Part shown: positions 18,480 to 30,070 of the stretch, piece by piece | Position numbering within the stretch: the stretch's first letter is position 1 | Layout: each line of letters opens with the position of its first letter | Assembly: GCA_029210625.1 (NCBI GenBank) | Contig: JARGFU010000041.1 | Span: 1 to 35,335, forward strand | Source of the DNA: Deltaproteobacteria bacterium | Lineage (GTDB): Bacteria; Myxococcota; Myxococcia; SLRQ01 | Length of the DNA: 35,335 bases | Reading direction: 5' to 3' | Translations under genes and position numbers: made by a program | The notes under the pieces: generated by a model | Database searches by the model: none | Told to the model about the DNA's origin: nothing | Seen by the model: the letters and a program-made list of their open reading frames with translations, nothing else

Positions 18480-20375
18480 ATGACCTATCCCCTCACCTAC
18501 CTCTACCTCCTCTCCTTCGTGGTGGTCCTCGCCATGACGGTGGCGGTGGGGATGGCCGCGCCGAGCCAGCCGGCCAAGCGCAGCCTCGTGCTGGCGATGA
18601 TCACGGTGTGCCTCTGGGCGCTCGCCTCCTTCCTGATGAACCTGGCGGCGACCCCCGGACAGATGCGGGTCATCACCGACCTCTTCGCCATCGCCTGGTG
18701 CGCCTTGCCCTTCCTCACCCTGCGGGCCGCCCTCCTCTACGGGCGCAACGAGGCCTCCCTCGCCCTGGGCTACCGGCTCCTCCTCGCCGTGCCGATGGCG
18801 GTGTCCCTCTGGCTGAAGCTCACCGGCCGGCTCTCGACCGAGCTCGTCCCCGCCTGGCGAAACGGCGGCGCCTTCGACGTCGTTCCCACCGACTGGCAGC
18901 TGCTGGTCAACGTCTACTTCTTCGTCTACTTCGGCGCGGCCGGGATCGTGCTCTGGCGCAAGGGCGTGCTGATGAACGCCGAGCGGGTCCGGCGCACCGC
19001 GGGCTTCTTCCTGATGCTCGCCCTCCCGGGGGTGCTCATCGGCTCCTGGAGCTCGGACGGGCTCTCCCTGGTCAGCTGGCGCCCTTTCTTCCTCGACAGC
19101 ATCATCGCCTCCGCGGTGGTCGCCGCCCTGGGCGGCGGGATGCTGCGCGAGATCTACTTCAAGCCCTGGGCCTCGGCGGAGGAGGCGCGGCGGCGCGCCG
19201 AGGAGCAGCTGGCGACCTTCATGTCCCTCTCCCCCGACTGCCTGGCGGTCGTGGACTTCGATGGGCACTTCCGGCTGATGAACCTCCCGGCCGCCCAGAT
19301 CCTGGGCTTCGACTCGGTGGAGGCCTGCCTGGAGAGCGGGAGGGTCATCGACGACTTCGTCCCCCCCGCGGAGCGCAAGACCCTCGGCCAGATGCGCCTC
19401 GCGATTCGCGAAGGCGAGGTCCTGCGCGGCGTTCCCCTGACCCTCCAGCGCGCCTCGGGAGAGCAGATCGAGACCGAGATCAGCGTCTCGCTCCTGCGCG
19501 ACGCCGACGGCGCGCCGAGCGGCTTCGTGGCGGCGCTGCGCGACGTCAGCGAGCGACGGAGCCTCGAGGAGGGCATGCGCCAGACCCAGAAGCTCGAGAG
19601 CCTCGGCCTGCTCGCCAGCGGGATCGCCCACGACTTCAACAACCTGCTCTCGGTGGTGATCGGCAGCTCGGATCTGGCCCTCGCGGCCTCCCGGGATCAG
19701 CCCGCGATCGCCGACAACGTCCAGCAGACCCTCCGGGGCGCGAAGCAGCTCGCCGCCCTGACCCGCGAGCTGCTGGTCTACTCGGGGCGCGCCCGGCAGG
19801 TGGTCGGCCCCCTCTCCCTCTCCGAGCTGGTGCAGAACATCAGCGGCCTGATGGACGTCTCCCTGCCGCGCGGGGTGACCCTCCACACCGACCTGGGGAC
19901 GGACCTGCCCACCTTCAGCGGCGACGCCACTCAGATCCAGCAGGTGGTGCTCAACCTCATCACCAACGCCGCCGAGGCCTCCGCCGAGGCCAGCGGGGCC
20001 GATCCCGGGCGCGGCGAGGGACGGGTCCGGCTCTCGACCTCGCTGCGCACCCTGCGGCGGGGCGAGGCCCGGGACGCGGGGGCGGCGCTGGTGGTCCCGG
20101 CCGGGGAGTACCTCTGCCTGGAGGTGGAGGACGACGGCCCGGGGATCGACCCGGAGATCCGCGAGAAGATCTTCGATCCCTTCTTCACCTCCAAGGTCGC
20201 CGGCCGCGGGCTGGGGCTCTCGGCGGTGCTGGGCATCGTCCGCGAGCACGGGGGCTACACCCTCCTCTCGAGCGGGCCCCGGGGGACGACCTTCCGGGTG
20301 CTGCTGCCGCCGGGCGAGAAGGCCGCGCGCCCCGCGCCGGCGCGGCCCGGCGCCCACGCCGACATCATCGAGTAG
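18480..20375 (+). CDS. Membrane PAS sensor histidine kinase (631 aa)
   Basis: Residues 1-225 form about seven hydrophobic segments, a membrane sensor like the 7TM N-termini of some kinases (LYLLSFVVVLAMTVAVGM through SIIASAVVAALGGGM). A PAS domain follows at about 240-360 (DCLAVVDFDGHFRLMNLPAAQILGF). The dimerisation helix carries His384 in GIAHDFNNLLS, the NtrB-like HDFNN form. The ATPase domain has the N-box VVLNLITNAAEAS, G1 VEDDGPGID and G2 GRGLGLS. It ends soon after the G2 region without the receiver domain that often follows this kinase type. It starts 24 bases after nadA but has no matching response regulator beside it, so it is an orphan. Signal unknown. Confidence 0.9.
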   Translation: MTYPLTYLYLLSFVVVLAMTVAVGMAAPSQPAKRSLVLAMITVCLWALASFLMNLAATPGQMRVITDLFAIAWCALPFLTLRAALLYGRNEASLALGYRLLLAVPMAVSLWLKLTGRLSTELVPAWRNGGAFDVVPTDWQLLVNVYFFVYFGAAGIVLWRKGVLMNAERVRRTAGFFLMLALPGVLIGSWSSDGLSLVSWRPFFLDSIIASAVVAALGGGMLREIYFKPWASAEEARRRAEEQLATFMSLSPDCLAVVDFDGHFRLMNLPAAQILGFDSVEACLESGRVIDDFVPPAERKTLGQMRLAIREGEVLRGVPLTLQRASGEQIETEISVSLLRDADGAPSGFVAALRDVSERRSLEEGMRQTQKLESLGLLASGIAHDFNNLLSVVIGSSDLALAASRDQPAIADNVQQTLRGAKQLAALTRELLVYSGRARQVVGPLSLSELVQNISGLMDVSLPRGVTLHTDLGTDLPTFSGDATQIQQVVLNLITNAAEASAEASGADPGRGEGRVRLSTSLRTLRRGEARDAGAALVVPAGEYLCLEVEDDGPGIDPEIREKIFDPFFTSKVAGRGLGLSAVLGIVREHGGYTLLSSGPRGTTFRVLLPPGEKAARPAPARPGAHADIIE

Positions 20376-20489: not shown

Positions 20490-21542
20490 CTAGTCGAGCT
20501 GGCCGCCGCAGGAGGAGCCGCCGCCGGCGGTGCAGCCGAAGCAGTGGCGATGGGCGACGATGGCCCGGCCGATCAGGCGGGCGGGCTCGGCGTCGAAGAT
20601 CGTCGCCGGGGCGCCGGGAGCGAGGCCGAGCTCCAGCATCTGGTTGAAGTCGCAGTCGTGGAGGGTGCCGTCGTGGGCCACGGAGATCATCGAGCGGCAC
20701 ATCACCCCGGCCGCGGCGACCGGGTTGAAGGCCTCGACCAGGCGCTGGAGGTAGTCGTCGAGGTTCTCGGAGAGCTCCAGCCACTCCAGGTAGCGCGCGA
20801 TGGGCATGTTGGTGATCGTGAAGAGCGAGTCGAAGACGATCCCGTGCAGGCGCTCCAGCTCCCGCTTCCACTCGGCCTCGAGGCTCCCCTGCGAGGGCGG
20901 CAGGAAGGCGCCCACCGGGTTGGTGACGATCCGCAGCTTGAGGCCGCTCTCCCCGTCGCCGTAGCCCACGGCGTTGAGCGCCCGCAGGGCCGCGATGCTC
21001 CGCTCGTAGACCCCCCGGCCGCGCTGCCGGTCGGTGGAGAGCTCGCGGTAGTGGGGCAGGGAGCAGACGACCTCCACCCGGTTGCGGGCGAAGAACTCCG
21101 GCAGGTCCCGCCCGGCGCCGGTCTCGAGGATGGTCAGGTTGCAGCGGTCGATGACGTGCCGGCCGCGGGCGCGCACCTCCTCGACGAACCAGCGGAAGTG
21201 GGGGTTCAGCTCCGGCGCGCCGCCGGTGAGATCCACCGTCCGCACCTCGCTGCGGTCCAGGAAGGAGAGGCAGGCCTCCAGGGTCTCCCGGCTCATCACC
21301 TCGTCCCGATCCGGGCCGGCGTCGACGTGGCAGTGGCGGCAGGTCTGGTTGCAGAGCCGCCCGACGTTGATCTGCAGCACGTCGAGGGCGTGGGCGTCGA
21401 GGGGCCAGAGCCCGGCGGCCTCGCAGGCGTCGGCGAACTCCCGGGGGAGCTCGACCGCGTCGAGCCGCTCGAGCTGGCGCTCGGGCGAGGCGAGGGCGTG
21501 GCCCTGCGCCTTCAGGGTGGGGAGAGAGGGGGGCACCCTCAC
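20490..21542 (-). CDS. arsS: Arsenosugar biosynthesis radical SAM protein ArsS (350 aa)
   Basis: The radical SAM cluster motif CNQTCRHC is at Cys64, Cys68 and Cys71, within LQINVGRLCNQTCRHCHVDAGP (abridged), the signature of ArsS. Other typical parts are TGGAPELNPHFRW, SLPHY, ITNMPIARYLEWL and VAHDGTLHDCDFNQML. The C-terminus HCFGCTAGGGSSCGG supplies extra cysteines, probably for an auxiliary cluster. ArsS attaches a deoxyadenosyl group to methylated arsenic on the route to oxo-arsenosugars. The GTG at 21542 overlaps the upstream stop (GTGA); a second GTG lies two codons later. The frame continues upstream, but only as a shadow of the peroxidase-like gene. No arsM methyltransferase is visible here. 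Confidence 0.92.
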   Translation of the reverse strand: MRVPPSLPTLKAQGHALASPERQLERLDAVELPREFADACEAAGLWPLDAHALDVLQINVGRLCNQTCRHCHVDAGPDRDEVMSRETLEACLSFLDRSEVRTVDLTGGAPELNPHFRWFVEEVRARGRHVIDRCNLTILETGAGRDLPEFFARNRVEVVCSLPHYRELSTDRQRGRGVYERSIAALRALNAVGYGDGESGLKLRIVTNPVGAFLPPSQGSLEAEWKRELERLHGIVFDSLFTITNMPIARYLEWLELSENLDDYLQRLVEAFNPVAAAGVMCRSMISVAHDGTLHDCDFNQMLELGLAPGAPATIFDAEPARLIGRAIVAHRHCFGCTAGGGSSCGGQLD

Positions 21543-21874
21543 ATCCCCAGCTTGTCGGCCTTGTTGCGCATCTGCACCCCGTGCACCAGCGACGCCCCGC
21601 CCCGGATGGCGGCGGCCACGTGCACCGCCTCGGTCATCTGATCGAGGTCGGCGCCCTTCTCGAGGCTGGCGCTGGTGTAGGCGTCGATGCAGTAGGGGCA
21701 CTGCACGGCGTGGGCGACCGCCAGGGCGATGAGCGACTTCTCCCGCTCGGAGAGGGCGCCCTCGGCCATCACGGCCTCGTACCAGGCGAAGTACTTCTTC
21801 CCCAGCTCGGGGGCGTTCTTGGAGATGTCGCCGAACTTCTTGAGGTCGCGGGAGAAGTAGTAGTGGTCGTGCAT
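21539..21874 (-). CDS. Arsenosugar biosynthesis-associated peroxidase-like protein (CMD/AhpD family, 111 aa)
   Basis: Small carboxymuconolactone-decarboxylase/AhpD-type protein with the redox motif CPYC at Cys59-Cys62 in AHAVQCPYCIDAYT. The opening MHDHYYFSRDLKKFGDISKNAP, here in two halves, is characteristic of the subfamily that accompanies ArsS. AhpD relatives use the two cysteines and a nearby His for thiol peroxidase or reductase chemistry; the exact role in the arsenosugar route is not settled. It has AAAGGAG nine bases before ATG 21874. The 4-base overlap with arsS shows a tight two-gene unit. Confidence 0.9.
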   Translation of the reverse strand: MHDHYYFSRDLKKFGDISKNAPELGKKYFAWYEAVMAEGALSEREKSLIALAVAHAVQCPYCIDAYTSASLEKGADLDQMTEAVHVAAAIRGGASLVHGVQMRNKADKLGM

Positions 21875-21909: not shown

Positions 21910-22056
21910 CTAGGGAGGCGGCGGGAGGAGGCCGATCCAGACGATCACGGCCACCCCCACCACCACGGCGATCAGGGGGGCTATGGTACGCCGCAGGTGG
22001 CTCTGGGCCACGCCCGGGGGCGCGCGGGTCTCCGGATCGTGCTGGCTCGCGCTCAT
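21910..22056 (-). CDS. 48-aa single-TM miniprotein
   Basis: The ATG at 22056 opens a 48-codon frame. It has a charged N-terminus (MSASQHDPETRAPPG), then RR and a single membrane helix (TIAPLIAVVVGVAVIVWIGLL), ending in PPPP and a TAG. It starts 15 bases after the histidine kinase stop, on the same strand, and ends 35 bases before the peroxidase-like gene. There is no strong ribosome site, so it may be translated by coupling to the kinase. Small one-TM proteins in this position can modulate sensor kinases; that is only a suggestion. It could instead be a chance frame, but the clean topology argues for a gene. Confidence 0.55.
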   Translation of the reverse strand: MSASQHDPETRAPPGVAQSHLRRTIAPLIAVVVGVAVIVWIGLLPPPP

Positions 22057-22071
22057 GGCGAGGGGAGCCTA

Positions 22072-24042
22072 TCAGCGCCCGGCCCTGAGGGTGAGCAGGA
22101 AGCTCGCCCCCTCCTCGGGATCCTCCAGCTCGAGGCTGCCGCCCATCTGCTGCGCCAGCCGGCGGCAGAGGGCCAGTCCCAGGCCCACCCCGGGGGCGGT
22201 GCCGGAGAGGTGCCGGGAGGACTTGGCGAAGGGCCGGAAGATGGTCTTGCGATCCGCCGCCGGGATGCCCGGGCCGTGGTCGCGCACCCGCAGGAGGATC
22301 CGCTCCTCGGCGGCGCCCACCATCACCTCGATCGGCCCGCCCTGCGGGCCGGCGTACTTGGCGGCGTTGTCCACCAGGTTGAAGAGCACCTGCTCCAGGG
22401 CCTGCGGATCGGCCATCACCTGCACCTCGGGCGGCTCCTTGAGCTCGAGGGTGAGGCCGGCCTGCAGCGCCCGCTCCGAGAGGCGGGGGGCGATGCGCTC
22501 GAGGAGCTCGGGCAGCGGGAGGGACTCGATCCGAGAGGCGTAGCGCCGGCCCTCGATGCGGGCGTAGGCCAGCACGTTCTCGACCAGGGCCGCGAGGCGG
22601 TCGGCCTCGCGGTGCAGGGTCTGGAAGTACTCCCCCTGGCGGTCCGGGCTCACCATCCCCTCGGAGAGCATCTCCGTGTACATCTTGAAGGTCGTCAGGG
22701 GCGTGCGCAGCTCGTGGGTCACCGAGGAGACGAAGGCGCCCCGGCGCTCGGAGAGGGAGACCGCGCCGAGCAGCAGGCCGAAGACCGCGAGGGCGGCGGC
22801 CAGCACGCAGGCCCAGGCGATGGCCAGGGAGACGGTCAGCGGCTGCAGCCCGGCGCGGGCCTCCGAGGGCAGCGCGCCGGGGACCAGCCGCACCGGGAGG
22901 GTGGCCAGCAGGCGGGGGGAGTCGTCGAGGGGCGAGCTCGCCGGCACCAGCCGCGCCTCGGGGAGCAGGTCCCGCGCCTCCTCGAGCAGGGCCGCCTCGA
23001 TGACCGGCCAGTCCAGCCAGGCCCCCTCGAGGTAGCGGCGGCCTTCGACCTGCGCCCGGCGGAGCATCAGCAGGTGCCCCTCGAACCAGAGCGGGCGCAT
23101 GGTGCCGGTGGCGACCTCCAGCAGGCGCGGCGGCGCCGCCGGGCTCCAGCCCTGCGCCGCGCCGAGGCCCAGGTTGTTGTCCAGCGCGTTGAGGTTCCCG
23201 GGCAGGGCCGCGGTGCCGCCGCCGAAGAGGTTGGAGAGGGAGCCCTGGCTGGCCTGCTGGAGGACCTGCTCGGTGGGCGCGACCAGCTTGGCGTCGGAGC
23301 CCTTCTTCTGCGCCGGCTGGGGCTCGGGCTTGGCCTTGGTCTCCTCCACCTGCTCGGTGGTCAGCGGCGGCGCCGCCTGCTGGTTGAACTCGGCGAAGTC
23401 GTCGTTGGTGGGGTTGTAGTAGTTGCCCACCTGGCGCTGCACGGCCTGGGCGCGCTTGTCGAACTCGACCCGGGTGCGCGCCTTCTCCTTGCGCACCTTG
23501 GCCAGCCGCTCGGGCTCCTCGGCGCTCAGGGTCACGAGCTGCTCCTTGCGGAAGCCCGCCCGCTTCTTGCGCAGCTCGATCTCGGCGTCGGGGATCTGCC
23601 GCGGCCGCGCGCCGGGCCTCGCCAGGGCCAGGAGCTCCCCCTGCTCCACCGGCGCCTCGGGGAAGGCGGCGTGGAGGGCCTCGGCCCCCAGGGAGACGGT
23701 CAGGGCGACGAGCTCGCCGGAGCGGCCGAGGTCGGGGGTCGAGAGCCGCCCCTCCTTCTCGTCGTAGAGGAGGTGGGCGCGCACCCAGTCCACCGGGGCC
23801 TTGCGACCCTCCTCCAGGTAGAAGCGGTGGGGGCGGCCGGTCTCCTGGGCGATGAAGGGGGTCAGGGCGCTGTCCATCCGCCAGAGGGTGAGGCGCACGG
23901 CGTCCTCGAGCTCGGCCTTGGCGGCGGCCTCGGTCTGCGCCTCGTCGAGCTCGAGGGCCGTGGCCGTGACCCAGCCCATGCCGCCGAGCACGCCGAGGAG
24001 GCAGAGGGCGAAGAGGCCCCAGGTGAAGAGGGGACGGCTCAC
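22072..24042 (-). CDS. Sensor histidine kinase with ~370-aa periplasmic domain (656 aa)
   Basis: TM1 is at about 6-27 and TM2 at about 404-427, enclosing a very large periplasmic region. This region carries a basic coiled-coil stretch (EIELRKKRAGFRKEQ, RLAKVRKEKARTRVEF), the motif NYYNPTNDDFAEFNQQ, then a Pro/Lys/Gln linker and a Gly/Asn-rich segment. It does not look like a Cache or PAS sensor. No HAMP is evident. The kinase core has His443 in THELRTPLTTF, an N-box with Asn555 (LFNLVDNAAKYAG), G1 RDHGPGIP and G2 GVGLGLA, as in PhoR/WalK-type kinases. The ATG overlaps the regulator stop (ATGA), so its partner is the PhoB-type protein just upstream. Its signal may come from the VWA protein of the same operon (inference). 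Confidence 0.9.
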   Translation of the reverse strand: MSRPLFTWGLFALCLLGVLGGMGWVTATALELDEAQTEAAAKAELEDAVRLTLWRMDSALTPFIAQETGRPHRFYLEEGRKAPVDWVRAHLLYDEKEGRLSTPDLGRSGELVALTVSLGAEALHAAFPEAPVEQGELLALARPGARPRQIPDAEIELRKKRAGFRKEQLVTLSAEEPERLAKVRKEKARTRVEFDKRAQAVQRQVGNYYNPTNDDFAEFNQQAAPPLTTEQVEETKAKPEPQPAQKKGSDAKLVAPTEQVLQQASQGSLSNLFGGGTAALPGNLNALDNNLGLGAAQGWSPAAPPRLLEVATGTMRPLWFEGHLLMLRRAQVEGRRYLEGAWLDWPVIEAALLEEARDLLPEARLVPASSPLDDSPRLLATLPVRLVPGALPSEARAGLQPLTVSLAIAWACVLAAALAVFGLLLGAVSLSERRGAFVSSVTHELRTPLTTFKMYTEMLSEGMVSPDRQGEYFQTLHREADRLAALVENVLAYARIEGRRYASRIESLPLPELLERIAPRLSERALQAGLTLELKEPPEVQVMADPQALEQVLFNLVDNAAKYAGPQGGPIEVMVGAAEERILLRVRDHGPGIPAADRKTIFRPFAKSSRHLSGTAPGVGLGLALCRRLAQQMGGSLELEDPEEGASFLLTLRAGR

Positions 24043-24743
24043 GCCTCGCTCGTCCCCTCGAAGCGGTAGCCCTTGCCGCGCACGGTGACGATCAGCCGCG
24101 GCGCGCCCTCGGGCTCGCGCAGCTTCTCCCGCAGGCGAGCGATGTGCATGTCGATGGTGCGGGTGTGGACGTGGGCGGGGTCGAGCTTCCAGACCCCCTT
24201 GAGGAGCTCGTCCCGGCTCACCGCCCTTCCGGCCCGCGCGGCGAGGAAGCGCAGCAGCTCGAGCTCGCGCTCGGAGAGCTCGGTGCGGCTGCCGTCGGTG
24301 TGGGTGATCGCCCGGGCGGCGAAGTCGACCTCCCCGCCGGGGATCGCCAGGGTCTGGATGTCGAGGGGCCGCTCGGCCGAGCGGCGCAGGACCGCCTCGA
24401 CCCGGGCGAGGAGCTCCCGCACCGAGAAGGGCTTCACCACGTAGTCGTCGGCGCCGAGCTTCAGCCCCTTCACCCGGTCGGCCTCCCGCCCCCGGGCGGT
24501 GAGGATGATCACCGGCAGCGTCGGGTGGACCTGCCGGACGGCCTCGAGGATCTCGAAGCCGTCCCCGCCCGGCAGCATCAGGTCGAGGAGGATCAGCTCG
24601 CAGGGGTTGCGCAGCGCGGCCTCCCGGCCGGCCGGGGCGTCCGCTGCCTCGAAGGGGGCGAAGCCCTCGAACTTCAGGGCGTCACAGACGCCCTGGCGGA
24701 TGGCCGGATCGTCCTCGATGACCAGGATGCGGCGGGCTGGCAT
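24039..24743 (-). CDS. PhoB/OmpR-family response regulator (234 aa)
   Basis: Receiver domain: acidic pair Asp11/Asp12, phospho-acceptor Asp54 in LILLDLMLPGGDG, Thr in ILTARG, and Lys104 in VVKPFS. The C-terminal winged helix has LSERELELLRFLAARAGRAVSRDEL and the recognition-helix region TRTIDMHIARLREKL, ending VRGKGYRFE, all standard for this family. The ATG at 24743 has GGAGAGGAG shortly upstream; the reading frame extends much further, but that part is an out-of-frame reading of the VWA gene. It is encoded between the VWA gene (32 bases upstream) and its kinase (4-base overlap). Paired GTTAC repeats upstream of the operon may be its binding site. Confidence 0.93.
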   Translation of the reverse strand: MPARRILVIEDDPAIRQGVCDALKFEGFAPFEAADAPAGREAALRNPCELILLDLMLPGGDGFEILEAVRQVHPTLPVIILTARGREADRVKGLKLGADDYVVKPFSVRELLARVEAVLRRSAERPLDIQTLAIPGGEVDFAARAITHTDGSRTELSERELELLRFLAARAGRAVSRDELLKGVWKLDPAHVHTRTIDMHIARLREKLREPEGAPRLIVTVRGKGYRFEGTSEA

Positions 24744-24775
24744 GGGCTCTCCTCTCCTCGCTTTCCTTCGAGCTA

Positions 24776-25996
24776 TCAGCTTTCGCCCGGCGCGGCGACC
24801 TGGGACCCCTCGACCTCGAAGCCCCCGGCCGCGGCCTGGTTGCGGATCGAGTCCACCAGGGAGTCGTCGAAGCTCTGGCCCTCCTGCTGCGCCTGCTTCT
24901 GGCGCTCGCTCGCGACCCAGCCCTCGCGCTCCTTCTTGAGCTTGCCGAGGCGCGCGGTGAGGGTGTCGCGCCGCTGCTGCAGCTTCTCCACCTCCACTTT
25001 CAGCTCCTCGTCGGAGAGGCCGGCGTACCGCGCGTCGAGCAGCTGCTTGTCGAGCTGCCGGATCTTGGCCTTCTTCTTCTGGATGGCGCTGACCAGGTCC
25101 CACTTGGAGTTGTCGTAGACCTTGGTGCCCTTGGTCATCGCCCGCTGGATGTTCGCGCCGCGGCCGGTGGAGAGGGCGTTGAGGTCCTGCGCCGCCACGT
25201 TGGCGAGGCCGGCGCTGCCGTGGGCGCCGAAGGCGATGGTGGTCTCGTTGATCTGCGCGCCGAGGCGGGCGATCTCCTCGTCCTGGGGCGCGGCGATCCA
25301 GGTGAGCGCCTGGTTCTGATCGATGCTGTGGAAGCGGCCACCCGCCAGGAGGGCGCCGTCGCGCCAGTGGCCGGCGATCCCCGACGCCTCGGGGCCGCAG
25401 TGGACGGTGTTCACCTTCACGCCCCTCTGCCGGGCGTCGGCGAGGGCCTGCTGGTAGTCGACCGGCCCCTGATCGAAGCCCTCGTTGCCGGCGATGAAGA
25501 TCAGCTTGAGGGTCCCGGGGTCGGGGTCCCAGGCGAGGCCCTTCAGGGCGGCGTCGATGACCTGGCCGCAGTGCTCGGAGCCGCCGTTGGTGGTCAGGGC
25601 GAAGAGGCCCTGGCTCACGTCGTCGAGATCGGTGGTGAAGGCCTGCACCTGCCGCAGGTAGCCGGTGGCGGCCTCGAGGCCGTCGTTGCCGTACTCGTAG
25701 AGGGCCACCCGCAGCTCGGGGGTGCGGCCCGCGCGCTTGAGCTCGGCCAGCTCGTTGACCACCCGCCACAGGCGGGTGCGGGCCTGATCGATGAGGCCGT
25801 CCATGCTGCTGGAGGTGTCGAGGAGGATCGCCAGCTGGACGATGGGAGGAGGAGCCGCTGGCTCCTGCGGGGCTTCGATGGGCGCGGGTTGCGGGAGGGC
25901 CACCTTCTCGGCCGCCTGGAAGTAGCGGGCCTGCACGAAGAAGGCGGTGACGAAGAGGGCGAGGGCGGCGGAGAAGATGCCGATGGTTCGATTCAT
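24776..25996 (-). CDS. Membrane-anchored VWA-domain protein with C-terminal coiled coil (406 aa)
   Basis: An N-terminal signal anchor (IGIFSAALALFVTAFFVQA) and a Pro/Ala linker lead into a von Willebrand A domain from about 53 to 235. The MIDAS metal site is D60-T-S-S-S, with a later Thr/Ser in LTTNGGSEHCG. A CGPEASGIAGHW stretch follows. Residues ~285-375 are a Lys/Glu/Gln-rich coiled coil after YDNSKWDLVSAIQKKKAKI. This arrangement, including the YDNSxWDLV junction, resembles uncharacterised VWA proteins of other phyla. The protein probably sits in the periplasm and binds a protein ligand through the metal site. It heads the operon with the response regulator and kinase. The two tandem stops lie in an AGCTGATAGCT sequence repeated at 35198. 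Confidence 0.88.
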   Translation of the reverse strand: MNRTIGIFSAALALFVTAFFVQARYFQAAEKVALPQPAPIEAPQEPAAPPPIVQLAILLDTSSSMDGLIDQARTRLWRVVNELAELKRAGRTPELRVALYEYGNDGLEAATGYLRQVQAFTTDLDDVSQGLFALTTNGGSEHCGQVIDAALKGLAWDPDPGTLKLIFIAGNEGFDQGPVDYQQALADARQRGVKVNTVHCGPEASGIAGHWRDGALLAGGRFHSIDQNQALTWIAAPQDEEIARLGAQINETTIAFGAHGSAGLANVAAQDLNALSTGRGANIQRAMTKGTKVYDNSKWDLVSAIQKKKAKIRQLDKQLLDARYAGLSDEELKVEVEKLQQRRDTLTARLGKLKKEREGWVASERQKQAQQEGQSFDDSLVDSIRNQAAAGGFEVEGSQVAAPGES

Positions 25997-26066: not shown

Positions 26067-26082
26067 GTAACGGCTCTGTAAC
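26067..26082 (-). promoter_or_regulatory. 11-bp-spaced GTTAC direct repeat upstream of the VWA/two-component operon
   Basis: On the minus strand GTTAC occurs at 26082-26078 and again at 26071-26067, exactly 11 bases apart, with a C two bases before each (CGGTTAC and CCGTTAC). PhoB/OmpR-family regulators typically bind tandem half-sites with this period. It lies about 70-85 bases upstream of the VWA start and just after the Ser/Thr kinase stop, a suitable place for autoregulation. Only two half-sites support the call. Confidence 0.35.
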
Positions 26083-26084
26083 CG

Positions 26085-28388
26085 TCAGTGCCCGGCGGCG
26101 CGCGCCCGCTCGAGCTCGGCCTGGGCCCGCAGGTCCATCAGGCGGGCGTCGATCTTGTCGAGCTCGGCGATCAGACGATCCTGCCGGCCCTGCAGCTTGT
26201 CGCGGCTCGAGCCGATCTGCCGCACCTCGCGGTCGGAGAGGATGCCGGTCTCCATCCGCTCGGTGGCCGACTGGATCAGCTCCCCGAGGCGATCGACCTC
26301 GTCCTGGAGGCCGGCCTGCCGGGACTCGAGGACGGCGACGGGATCGACCAGGCGCAGGTCGACCTTGAGCTGCTTGCCGGGCTTGGGCCCCTTCAGCTTC
26401 TTGCGGCCGATCTTTCCCTCCCGGCGCGCCTCGACGACCACGCTGCGGCGCGGCGCCACGGCGATCTTCGCCGGGGTCTGCAGGCCCAGGGCGACGCCGT
26501 CGAGGTAGAGCTCGGCCCCCGCCGGGCGGCTGCTCACCATCAGGTAGGCGGCCCGCGCCAGCTGGGTCTCCCAGGTCACCGGCTCCCGCTGCAGCTTCAG
26601 CACGATCGAGGCGGTGGCGTGGCCCTCGAGGCCGGCCAGGAGCTGGTGCTCCCCCGGGGGCAGGGTGATCGTCCCGGGGGTCTGGAGGAGCAGCACCCTC
26701 CCCTCGCTGGTCACCTGCGCGCCGGGCGGCTCGGTCGTCACGGTGACCTCCACCAGCTTCTCCAGGTGGATCCGCACCGGCCGCTCGGCCTGGGTGTAGG
26801 GGAGCTTCACGGTGGTGGGGACGTGGCCCTCGAGGGTGGCGGTGACGACGTGCTCGCGCAGGGCGAGGGTCTCCACCCGGGTCGGGCTCGGGGCGCTCAC
26901 CGGCTGGTCGTTGACGACCAGGCTCGCCCCGGGCGGGGTCGTCTCGATCTGCAGGGTGACCTTGCCGTCGGCGGGCGCGGCGACCTCGGCCTCCTCTCCG
27001 CCCAGGAGGAAGAAGCCCAGCCCGCCCACCAGGGCCAGGAGCCCCAGGGCCCCGCCGCCGATCAGCAGCCAGGGAGGCCGGCCGCTCGGGCGGGGCGCGG
27101 CCGCGGCCGCCTCGGGCCGCAGCTCGGCCGAGGGCGAGGGGGGGCGGGCCGCCGGGGTCGAGAGGTCCGGCGCGGAGGGCAGCAGATCGTCGGGGGAGGA
27201 GGGCCCGGGGGCCGCCGCCGGCACCGGCTCGTAGGCGAGATCGAGGGCGGGCTCGGAGGCCGCCGGCCGGAGGTCGTCGAAGGTCGGCGCGACGAAGGCG
27301 GGCCCCGGGCCGCCCGGATCGGCCGGGACGTACTCTCCCTCCAGGGCCGTGGCGAGGCCGGGGGCCGGGGCGCCGAAGGCGTCCTCCAGGGGAGGCAGGC
27401 TCGAGGGATCGAAGGGCGCCGGGGCCGTCGCCGTCGCGGCGGGGAGCGGCGGCGCGGTCCAGGCCGCCTCCGGGCCCGGGCCGGTGGGCGCCGGGGGAGA
27501 GGAGGGGCTGGCCGGCGGGGTGGCGCCCGCCGGCGCGCCCGGGAGGCCGAGCGGCGCGATCTCTCCGCGCAGCCAGGCCGCGACGAGCTCCTGGGGGGTC
27601 CCGGCGCGGATCCCGCTCAAGGTCCGGGAGAGCATCGCCTGGGTCGCCTGGGCGTCGGGGCGCGCGCCGGGCTCGCGCTCCAGCATCGCCATCACCGCGT
27701 CCACCGCCCCGGCGTGCAGCTCCGGGTTCACGTCGGCGAGGTGGGGCACGTCCTCGGTGACCAGCTGGGCGATGATCGCGGGCGTCTCCTCGCTGCGCCA
27801 GATCCGCCGGCCGGTGAGCGCCTCCCAGAGGATCACCCCGAGGGCGAAGACGTCCGAGCGCCCGTCGATCTCCTTGCCGCGCACCTGCTCGGGCGACATG
27901 TAGGCCGGCTTCCCCTTCACCAGCCCCAGCTGGGTGGTGGTGTCGCGGCCGGCGGCCTTCACGATCCCGAAGTCGAGGAGCTTCACCCAGCCCTGCTCGG
28001 TGACCAGGAGGTTGTCGGGGGAGATGTCGCGGTGGACGATCCCCATCGGCGCGCCCTGCTCGTCGGTGGCCGCGTGCGCGTAGGCCAGGGCCCCGGCGGC
28101 CTGGGTGCCGAGGGCCATCCCCACGGCCTCCGGGAGGCGCAGCCCCGCCTTGCGCATCTGCGCCAGGAGGCGGTGGAGGGAGTCGCCGGGGACCAGCTCC
28201 ATCACCAGGAAGACCCTCCCCTCGTCCACGCCGAAGTCGTAGACCTGCGCGATGCCGGGGTGGGTGAGGCGGGCGACGATCCGCGCCTCGTCGTGGAACA
28301 TCTTCAGGCGAAGGTCGTCGTCGTCGGTGCCGGTGAGCACGACCTTGAGCGCGACCTCCCGCCGGAAGCCCTCGGGCCCCTCGGCCAC
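26085..28388 (-). CDS. PEGA-domain Ser/Thr protein kinase, N-terminally truncated (767 aa as read)
   Basis: Kinase motifs are VALKVV (Lys15), HRDISPDN, DFGIVKA, an APE-equivalent MSPEQ and an intact C-lobe to about residue 265. A long Pro/Ala linker, a membrane helix (440-464), three PEGA repeats (TTPPGASLVVND; TTEPPGAQVTSEG; SSRPAGAELYLDG) and a C-terminal coiled coil follow. The glycine-rich ATP loop that should precede VYRA is absent. In frame, only ten codons (including QVYRA) lie between a TGA and the first usable start, GTG 28388. A plausible native start, GTG 28426, encodes SDSSQLP but is out of frame by two bases. This suggests an out-of-frame deletion of the first strand, real or from assembly. 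It could be a damaged gene. Confidence 0.8.
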   Translation of the reverse strand: MAEGPEGFRREVALKVVLTGTDDDDLRLKMFHDEARIVARLTHPGIAQVYDFGVDEGRVFLVMELVPGDSLHRLLAQMRKAGLRLPEAVGMALGTQAAGALAYAHAATDEQGAPMGIVHRDISPDNLLVTEQGWVKLLDFGIVKAAGRDTTTQLGLVKGKPAYMSPEQVRGKEIDGRSDVFALGVILWEALTGRRIWRSEETPAIIAQLVTEDVPHLADVNPELHAGAVDAVMAMLEREPGARPDAQATQAMLSRTLSGIRAGTPQELVAAWLRGEIAPLGLPGAPAGATPPASPSSPPAPTGPGPEAAWTAPPLPAATATAPAPFDPSSLPPLEDAFGAPAPGLATALEGEYVPADPGGPGPAFVAPTFDDLRPAASEPALDLAYEPVPAAAPGPSSPDDLLPSAPDLSTPAARPPSPSAELRPEAAAAAPRPSGRPPWLLIGGGALGLLALVGGLGFFLLGGEEAEVAAPADGKVTLQIETTPPGASLVVNDQPVSAPSPTRVETLALREHVVTATLEGHVPTTVKLPYTQAERPVRIHLEKLVEVTVTTEPPGAQVTSEGRVLLLQTPGTITLPPGEHQLLAGLEGHATASIVLKLQREPVTWETQLARAAYLMVSSRPAGAELYLDGVALGLQTPAKIAVAPRRSVVVEARREGKIGRKKLKGPKPGKQLKVDLRLVDPVAVLESRQAGLQDEVDRLGELIQSATERMETGILSDREVRQIGSSRDKLQGRQDRLIAELDKIDARLMDLRAQAELERARAAGH

Positions 28389-28489: not shown

Positions 28490-30070
28490 TCAGCCCAGCA
28501 GGCGATCGATGAGGGCCTGGAGCGAGAACCCCTCGCGCGCCTCGACGTAGAGGCCCATGCCTCCCCGGCGGCCGAGATCGACCCGCACCACCCGGCCGTG
28601 AGCCCTCACCGGGGGATCGCCCGGCTTGAGCCGGATCTCGATCTCGTACTCGCTCCCGGGCGGCGGCGGCGTCGCGTCGATCACGAAGAGGCCGCGGGCC
28701 GAGATGTCGCGGGTGAAGGTGTGGAGGGTCTGGTTGCGGTCGGGCAGGCGAATCAGCTTCACCGGCAGGCTCGCCTCGTGGCGCGGGTGCTGCCGCCGAT
28801 CCTGGCCGGCGGGCTCGGGCTCGGGCTCGGGGCTCGCCAGCCCGGCGCCGGGGTCGAAGCCCGCGGGCGGCGGGGGCGCCGTGATCACGGGCGGGAGCGG
28901 CGGGGGGAGCGGCTGGAAGAGGTCGGGCTCGGAGCCCGGGCCGAAGAGGGGGGTGAAGCTCTCGGCCTCGTCCACGAGCGAGGCCAGCTCGCCGTAGCCC
29001 GGCTGGATCATCTCTCCGGGGTCCGGCGCCGGGGCCACCAGCCCCTCGATGATGTCCAGCTCCACCGGGGGCAGGAGCTTCAGGAACTCGTCCGCGCCCC
29101 GGAAGCCCTCGTCCCGGGCGTAGCGGACCAGGGTGCTGATGAGGAAGAGGTTCATCTGGCGCTGCCGGGCGCCATGGACGAGGCGCCGCGCGCGCACCTG
29201 GAGGATCTCCGTGCCCTCCGAGCGCAGGACCAGATCCGAGATGCCGTGGGAGAGCGCCGCCAGCCCGTCGTGGACCGTCGGCGCCTTGGAGGTCACCAGG
29301 ATGTCGAGGAGGGGGTCGCGCTGCTTGAACTCGCGGATGAGCTCCACCGAGCGCTCGGACTCCAGGCTGACGATCGCGGTGAGGGCGCCGAGGGCGCCGA
29401 CCAGGGAGAGGGCGCCCTCCTCGTCCTGCCGCTCCTCCACCGAGATCCCCTCGAGCACCAGGGCGCCGCAGAGCACGTCGGAGATGACCTCGGACTGCTG
29501 GAAGAGCAGCACGTCGGTCTTCAGGCGCATGTCCTGCTTGTGCTCGAAGAGATCGCGCCCGATCTTCTTGACCACCGAGGCCTCACCCCGGGTCTCGACC
29601 AGCGCCGCCTTCAGCTCCTTGATGATGCGGCGGTAGACCTTGGCCTGGATGCCCGCGGCGCAGACCGAGTCGAAGCGGTTGAGCACCTGGGTGATGTCGT
29701 CGAAGGGCTTGGCGATGTAGTCGCGGGCGCCGGCCCGCAGGGCGGCGGAGATCGACGGCGCCGAGGGGTAGGCGGTGATCATCACCGAGGGGACGTCGAG
29801 GCCCTGCTGCTGCACCTCGGTGAGCAGATCGACGCCGCTGCCGCCGGGCAGGTTCTTGTCCACCAGCAGCAGATCGAAGGGCTCGGCCGAGATCGCCTCC
29901 CGGGCCTCCTCGAGGCCCTCGGCCTCGGCCACCTCGTAGCCACCGGACTCCAGGACCGCCCGGAGCAGCTCGCGGATCACCTGCTCGTCGTCGATGATCA
30001 GCGCCCGGACGTTGCGGCCCAGCGCGCGTGCGTAGGGAGCCCACCCTCCCGCTGACTGGTTGGGAACCAT
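28490..30070 (-). CDS. Receiver-PilZ protein with a degenerate second receiver-like domain (526 aa)
   Basis: An N-terminal receiver (20-140) has Asp27/28, phospho-acceptor Asp71 (LLLVDKNLPGG), Thr in MITAYP and Lys121 (YIAKPFD). A helical linker follows. Residues ~185-310 look like a second receiver lacking the acceptor (IVSLESE at the expected place). A Pro-rich linker then leads to a PilZ domain (~424-526) with both c-di-GMP motifs, RQHPR (426-430) and DISARG (455-460). It probably senses phosphorylation and c-di-GMP and controls motility or surface traits in the cytoplasm (inference). The start is ATG 30070, with AGAGG three bases upstream; the tight spacing leaves a later start possible. 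It lies six bases after the lipoprotein gene and 101 bases before the kinase gene. Confidence 0.85.
   Translation of the reverse strand: MVPNQSAGGWAPYARALGRNVRALIIDDEQVIRELLRAVLESGGYEVAEAEGLEEAREAISAEPFDLLLVDKNLPGGSGVDLLTEVQQQGLDVPSVMITAYPSAPSISAALRAGARDYIAKPFDDITQVLNRFDSVCAAGIQAKVYRRIIKELKAALVETRGEASVVKKIGRDLFEHKQDMRLKTDVLLFQQSEVISDVLCGALVLEGISVEERQDEEGALSLVGALGALTAIVSLESERSVELIREFKQRDPLLDILVTSKAPTVHDGLAALSHGISDLVLRSEGTEILQVRARRLVHGARQRQMNLFLISTLVRYARDEGFRGADEFLKLLPPVELDIIEGLVAPAPDPGEMIQPGYGELASLVDEAESFTPLFGPGSEPDLFQPLPPPLPPVITAPPPPAGFDPGAGLASPEPEPEPAGQDRRQHPRHEASLPVKLIRLPDRNQTLHTFTRDISARGLFVIDATPPPPGSEYEIEIRLKPGDPPVRAHGRVVRVDLGRRGGMGLYVEAREGFSLQALIDRLLG

Follow-up and report, generated by a model that had tools for sequence, protein, structure and literature searches.

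A conserved operon of VWA protein, response regulator and histidine kinase genes that appears to be self-regulated through a direct-repeat promoter box

We analyzed a 35,335-nt stretch of DNA from a Deltaproteobacteria bacterium (Myxococcota; Myxococcia; SLRQ01), namely positions 1-35,335 of contig JARGFU010000041.1 in assembly GCA_029210625.1 (hereafter, the window), a single contig from a genome of 6.1 Mb. Four open reading frames (ORFs) lie in a row on the minus strand of the window, and encode a VWA protein, an OmpR/PhoB-family response regulator (RR), a sensor histidine kinase (HK) and a hydrophobic product of 48 aa. The VWA and RR genes are separated by 32 nt, the RR and HK genes overlap by 4 nt (GTGA), and the HK gene is followed after 15 nt by the small ORF, just as described in an earlier reading of this DNA (the sequence-only reading), which regarded the four tightly packed, co-directional genes as one unit. 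The first three products carry the Pfam domains VWA, Response_reg plus Trans_reg_C, and HisKA plus HATPase_c, respectively, the second and third being an OmpR/PhoB-type pair, i.e., a receiver and winged-helix RR encoded beside a HisKA/HATPase HK. The genes and the candidate promoter element are as follows.

26067..26082, minus strand: putative RR box GTTACAGAGCCGTTAC, a KTTACA-N5-KTTACA direct repeat with an 11-bp period (window and homologous operons)
24776..25996, minus strand: VWA protein, 406 aa (PF00092, E = 3e-6)
24039..24743, minus strand: OmpR/PhoB-family RR, 234 aa (PF00072 and PF00486)
22072..24042, minus strand: sensor HK, 656 aa, with a GTG start that overlaps the RR stop (PF00512 and PF02518)
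21910..22056, minus strand: 48-aa hydrophobic ORF, a possible gene (no family match)

The VWA, RR and HK genes are a conserved unit, i.e., one operon, which is found in at least six bacterial phyla. A genome scan with an alignment of the periplasmic sensor region of the HK gave 79 loci, which span Myxococcota, Planctomycetota, Verrucomicrobiota, Omnitrophota, Acidobacteriota, Muiribacteriota and others. The HK gene is adjoined by an RR gene in 78 of these loci, the exception (L142) having a partial RR gene at a contig edge, and an extra gene of ~1.5 kb lies between RR and HK in a few of the 78. Upstream genes were counted in the 60 loci with room upstream; a same-strand VWA gene was present in 28 of them and a VIT-VWA gene in 25, and other loci have an upstream gene for a 550-760-aa protein with weak resemblance to MuiA/DUF4139. 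The co-occurrence of VWA and kinase genes, whose absence from other genomes would have refuted the sequence-only reading, is therefore seen. Gene maps place VWA, RR and HK on one strand, with 9-nt gaps and a 4-nt overlap in Myxococcus and its relatives. Because gene order, strand and tight spacing are repeated across phyla, we consider the three-gene unit to be real. Clustering of raw ORFs, all against all, gave too much noise unless it was restricted.

In a survey of 195 genomes within the phylum, the sensor region was found in 32 genomes and VWA relatives in 113, and the VWA gene lies beside the HK gene in 24 of the 32 sensor-HK genomes, as judged from coordinates. The VWA protein is not an obligatory partner of the sensor HK; no VWA gene was found nearby in 32 of the 60 loci with room, and no VWA-family match was found in 21 of the 35 HK genomes that were searched whole. 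The 48-aa ORF is outside the conserved unit. Its product matched no family in Pfam and NCBIfam scans of the window proteins, and no similar ORF was found behind the HK gene in 68 other loci; with its counterpart missing at the equivalent position, the proposal that it encodes a one-transmembrane modulator was rejected. Thus, three of the four proposed members of the unit hold together by order, strand and spacing across phyla, but the miniprotein does not belong to it.

The recognition helix of the RR (TRTiDMHiArLReKL) is conserved over the 78 RRs. The putative RR box was first noticed once in the window and was then tested in other loci. It is located in the 88-nt space between an upstream Ser/Thr kinase gene and the VWA gene, in the VWA promoter region, 2 nt after the kinase stop and 70 nt before the VWA start codon, and the VWA operons of Myxococcus have the box at the equivalent place. 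For the test in cis, we used 286 kb of DNA upstream of RR genes from non-redundant loci of many phyla. In this DNA, GTTAC-N6-GTTAC occurred 18 times in the forward orientation and once in the reverse orientation, with 0-1 occurrences at each of 12 other spacings and at most 4 for any permuted word. An unbiased search for 11-bp repeats in the loci without a GTTAC box returned TTTAC/TTACA, and the combined pattern KTTAC-N6-KTTAC was found 45 times forward and once reverse, with at most 2 occurrences at any other spacing. The putative target promoters contain a direct repeat with an 11-bp period, with a spacer of 6 only and on one strand. Direct repeats with an 11-bp period are used by PhoB-type regulators. 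Judging from these sequence patterns, the RR appears to switch on the operon that encodes it, via a shared DNA box.

The box was also found in trans. Among nine distant VWA genes in non-myxococcal HK genomes, six (L173, L174, L175, L178, L180 and L187) have a right-strand box upstream of the VWA gene or of a VIT-VWA gene just before it, and ~0.03 boxes are expected by chance in the nine upstream regions at the background rate of the KTTAC-N6-KTTAC test. A Fisher test of boxed distant VWA genes (6/9) against orphans (1/18) gave p = 0.002, with myxococcal genomes left out post hoc, two of the 18 "orphans" (L065 and L073) coming from HK genomes, and a weak contrast when all HK genomes are pooled. 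Because of the post hoc exclusion and the misplaced orphans, we relied on the background rate instead. Three HK-RR loci were also fetched from myxococcal HK genomes whose distant VWA genes have no box; in these loci, the box precedes a MuiA-like gene beside the RR gene in L043 and L045, and is at the equivalent place in L044. Strict boxes numbered 62 genome-wide versus 21 for reversed-pattern controls in 31 genomes, and among 40 distant sites that were fetched, one precedes a VIT-VWA gene (L197) and two precede MuiA-like genes (L194 and L200) at 35-53 nt. In complete Myxococcus genomes (10-13 Mb), the operon box is the sole strict site or one of two. Because there are so few strict sites per genome, the regulon looks very small. 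Since the promoter box ties the VWA genes to the RR both in cis and in trans, we regard them as probable outputs of the RR.

Some individual boxes deserve mention. At L120 (position 1919, minus strand), the box is opposite in strand to the RR-HK pair, and a boxed MuiA-like gene (L200) is located elsewhere in that genome; the L120 box possibly serves a divergent gene. At L058 (5820-7395), a box precedes a shortened VIT-like start and then a VWA gene, perhaps a decaying copy. Other GTTAC repeats in the genome of the window (one on contig C1, three on C7 and one on C15) have no flanking A, and the four that were read (C1 and C7) precede unrelated genes; these are probably chance occurrences and were not retained as boxes.

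An AlphaFold2 (AF2) model of the VWA protein (pLDDT 92) has a clear VWA fold and a C-terminal helical part. Two features were located in the protein.

25805..25819, minus strand: DxSxS element of the MIDAS, DTSSS at residues 60-64 (translation and alignment)
24890..25012, minus strand: long helix or coiled coil, ~residues 329-369 (DSSP of the AF2 model, H305-345 in model numbering)

The coiled coil noted from the sequence thus corresponds to a long helix in the model. The best structural neighbour is BatB (3ibs; Z 19.9, rmsd 2.5, 173 aligned), and the aligned ranges, of which the ends alone are available, span ~residues 27-366 of the model. Ranges of this extent suggest a VWA fold that is interrupted by a helical insertion of ~150 residues and is completed by the last helix. 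The protein resembles the BatA/BatB aerotolerance proteins in having an exported VWA fold with BatB as the top structural match; unlike them, it has an extra C-terminal helical part, an altered MIDAS and a two-component partner, and there is no Bat operon here. The MIDAS had been described as intact, which is correct for DxSxS, near-invariant in the family alignment, but not for the canonical Thr and Asp, where the alignment has GGxExCG and AGNEPF. The Thr site is variable in the family; the strand that usually has the MIDAS Asp at its end reads IAGNEPF in the family and AGNEG in the window, with D in related VWAs of the VGDAPPH type. Membrane anchoring, which was also proposed, is uncertain, since a signal anchor is possible but the relatives have cleavable-looking signal peptides and the window protein has a VQA-like site; from its sequence the N terminus could be either a signal peptide or a signal anchor.

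The operon VWAs belong to two separate subfamilies. Those of L098, L105 and L113 come from a different subfamily with a VGDAPPH-like motif, which suggests that such VWAs were recruited separately to the same signalling pair. A single clade of HK-linked VWAs was considered and found unsupported, as linked and orphan VWAs interleave. The genome of the window holds two more VWA paralogues (contigs C18 and C26; loci L051 and L052), both without a box and without an adjacent HK gene.

The HK has a long periplasmic region, as stated in the sequence-only reading, and two parts of it were delimited.

22837..23964, minus strand: periplasmic sensor region, residues 27-402 (alignment of 64 relatives; AF2)
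23143..23445, minus strand: variable low-complexity insert, ~residues 200-300, which holds NYYNPTNDDF (gap in myxococcal relatives; low pLDDT)

The 64 aligned sensors share a conserved N-terminal half (RLALWRMDS...) and a conserved C-terminal half (QGxWLDWP...DLLPxAxL), and have a variable middle. NYYNPTNDDF, previously taken for a kinase motif, was rejected as such because it is confined to the ~100-residue insert that is missing from the relatives. The sensor region gave no Pfam or NCBIfam match, none of the 64 members matched the sequence profiles of Cache families, searching PDB sequences with the sensor profile yielded nothing but spurious matches, and Foldseek with the sensor model gave no match at E <= 0.001. 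In the AlphaFold model of the sensor (pLDDT 72), the first helix is long and is accompanied by a mixed domain. In a VIA structure comparison, the top 21 neighbours of the model consist entirely of periplasmic domains of the dCACHE, LuxQ or CHASE4 type with Z of 7.9-4.3, all below 8 (Mlp24, Z 7.9, rmsd 4.2, 177 aligned; KinD, 7.8; LuxQ, 5.9; CHASE4, 5.0), and unrelated folds start after those 21 rows at Z 3.5. By this route, the model most resembles double-Cache/CHASE4 domains, and the sensor would be a divergent dCACHE-like domain. It differs from dCACHE/CHASE4/LuxQ sensors in having no sequence match in the 64 relatives and a long variable insert, and the model confidence is moderate. The claims that the region is unlike Cache and is not a known family are accordingly borne out by sequence, but probably not by the predicted fold.

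Two known systems are close enough to be compared. CreBC of E. coli and BlrAB of Aeromonas likewise consist of a PhoB-like RR and an HK with a periplasmic sensor, and have a link to the cell envelope; their target promoters contain the cre/blr-tag TTCACnnnnnnTTCAC, a 5-mer direct repeat with an 11-bp period (PMC3660660). The system described here differs in its word (KTTACA), its sensor and its VWA-type targets, and the scores of the RR (162 bits versus the CreB cut-off of 273) and the HK (121 versus the CreC cut-off of 356) are below those of equivalogs. In the dedicated sortase system of proteobacteria, a class GN sortase (TIGR03784) and its VIT-VWA target (TIGR03788) are paired with a dedicated HK and RR, so that a VIT-VWA protein is likewise encoded with its own two-component pair. 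The partner VIT-VWAs studied here match TIGR03788 at 214-228 bits, below the 551-bit cut-off, and TIGR03784 was not found in eight of nine genomes, including that of the window, and was on another contig in the remaining one; furthermore, the sensor region here matches no NCBIfam model.

The best explanation, which we consider probable, is that the VWA-RR-HK operon encodes a small system for envelope responses, which regulates itself and has exported VWA-type proteins as its outputs. In such a system, the dCACHE-like periplasmic sensor would detect a cue, which may be a small molecule or a state of the envelope, and the HK would phosphorylate the PhoB-type RR. The RR would then bind to KTTACA-N5-KTTACA direct repeats and switch on its own operon. 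The main products would be the exported VWA protein here and a VIT-VWA or MuiA/DUF4139-like protein in other lineages, encoded in cis or at distant loci, and these VWA-type proteins may act in the periplasm or at the cell surface. Several observations weigh against this explanation. With the strict pattern, a box near a start is missing from approximately half of the non-redundant loci that have room, and some HK-RR loci have neither a VWA nor a VIT-VWA gene. In myxococcal HK genomes, the window's own with its two paralogues among them, distant VWA paralogues are without a box, most of the 40 fetched trans sites precede unrelated genes, some surely by chance, and the boxed VWA gene at L058 belongs to a genome that yielded no such HK. 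We give about even chances to a wider proposal, namely that the dCACHE-like kinase and the PhoB-type RR with its conserved KTTACA-N5-KTTACA box constitute an undescribed system that controls almost only exported VWA, VIT-VWA and MuiA-like proteins in at least six phyla, and that the VWA fold may be an integrin-like switch reporting back to the kinase. We found no description of such a system in the open-access literature.

Other roles for the VWA protein can be weighed against that of an output. RR-induced VWA or VIT-VWA proteins might bind to the sensor and turn it off, in the manner of CpxP in the Cpx system of envelope stress, so that output and input are combined. A self-regulated operon whose first gene product is exported fits this idea, and feedback of the CpxP kind is a common design in envelope stress systems; however, contact with the sensor is purely hypothetical and genomes that have no VWA still retain the HK, and we regard such feedback as possible but rather unlikely. 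Somewhat more doubtful is a role as co-sensor, in which the metal-dependent domain of the VWA protein would bind a ligand or partner, contact the periplasmic region of the HK and set kinase activity, as LuxP does with LuxQ. The tight VWA-RR-HK linkage, the interaction modules that VWA domains are, and the presence of LuxQ, a protein controlled by a periplasmic partner, among the structural neighbours of the sensor are in its favour. Nevertheless, many HK genomes have no VWA at all and more than half of the loci with room (32 of 60) have none nearby, the operon VWAs come from two subfamilies, their MIDAS is non-canonical and the box makes the VWA gene a target. The metal-dependent kinase input envisaged in the sequence-only reading is hence unsupported.

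Two further explanations concern the genes around the pair. It is very unlikely that the HK gene belongs to an arsenic-response unit with the miniprotein and the downstream genes for an AhpD-like protein (TIGR04169) and the ArsS radical SAM enzyme of arsenosugar synthesis; these genes share a strand and have short gaps, but arsenosugar genes are not beside the HK gene in the other myxococcal loci or the 79 wider loci that were examined, and a ribosome-binding site of its own precedes the AhpD-like gene. The least probable explanation is chance linkage or hitch-hiking of a VWA gene without a functional tie to the two-component pair. Although orphan VWA homologues are many (113 of 195 genomes with VWA versus 32 with the sensor), a gene order conserved over six phyla and a box common in cis and in trans strongly disfavour it.

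Most of the many VWA and VIT-VWA proteins of bacteria have no assigned function. A sensor pair dedicated to them, together with a promoter box that can be read, would give a direct handle on when VWA proteins are made and where the regulon ends, and the system is testable in cultivable Myxococcus species. It would also extend the logic of the CreB-type box to three phyla with few known envelope-response systems, namely Planctomycetota, Verrucomicrobiota and Myxococcota.

The surroundings of the operon were also annotated. Directly upstream of the VWA gene, 26085-28388 (minus strand) encodes a PknB-like Ser/Thr kinase with PEGA repeats, which was rejected as an operon member because it is not beside VWA in other linked loci and the box begins right past its stop. 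Further upstream, 28490-30070 (minus strand) encodes a 526-aa protein with a receiver domain fused to PilZ and a long middle part. Directly downstream of the small ORF are the arsenosugar genes (20490-21874, minus strand), i.e., those for ArsS radical SAM (TIGR04167, 422 bits) and the AhpD-like TIGR04169 protein. They are followed on the opposite strand by a second histidine kinase (18480-20375, plus strand), which has an N-terminal 7TM region and PAS domains.

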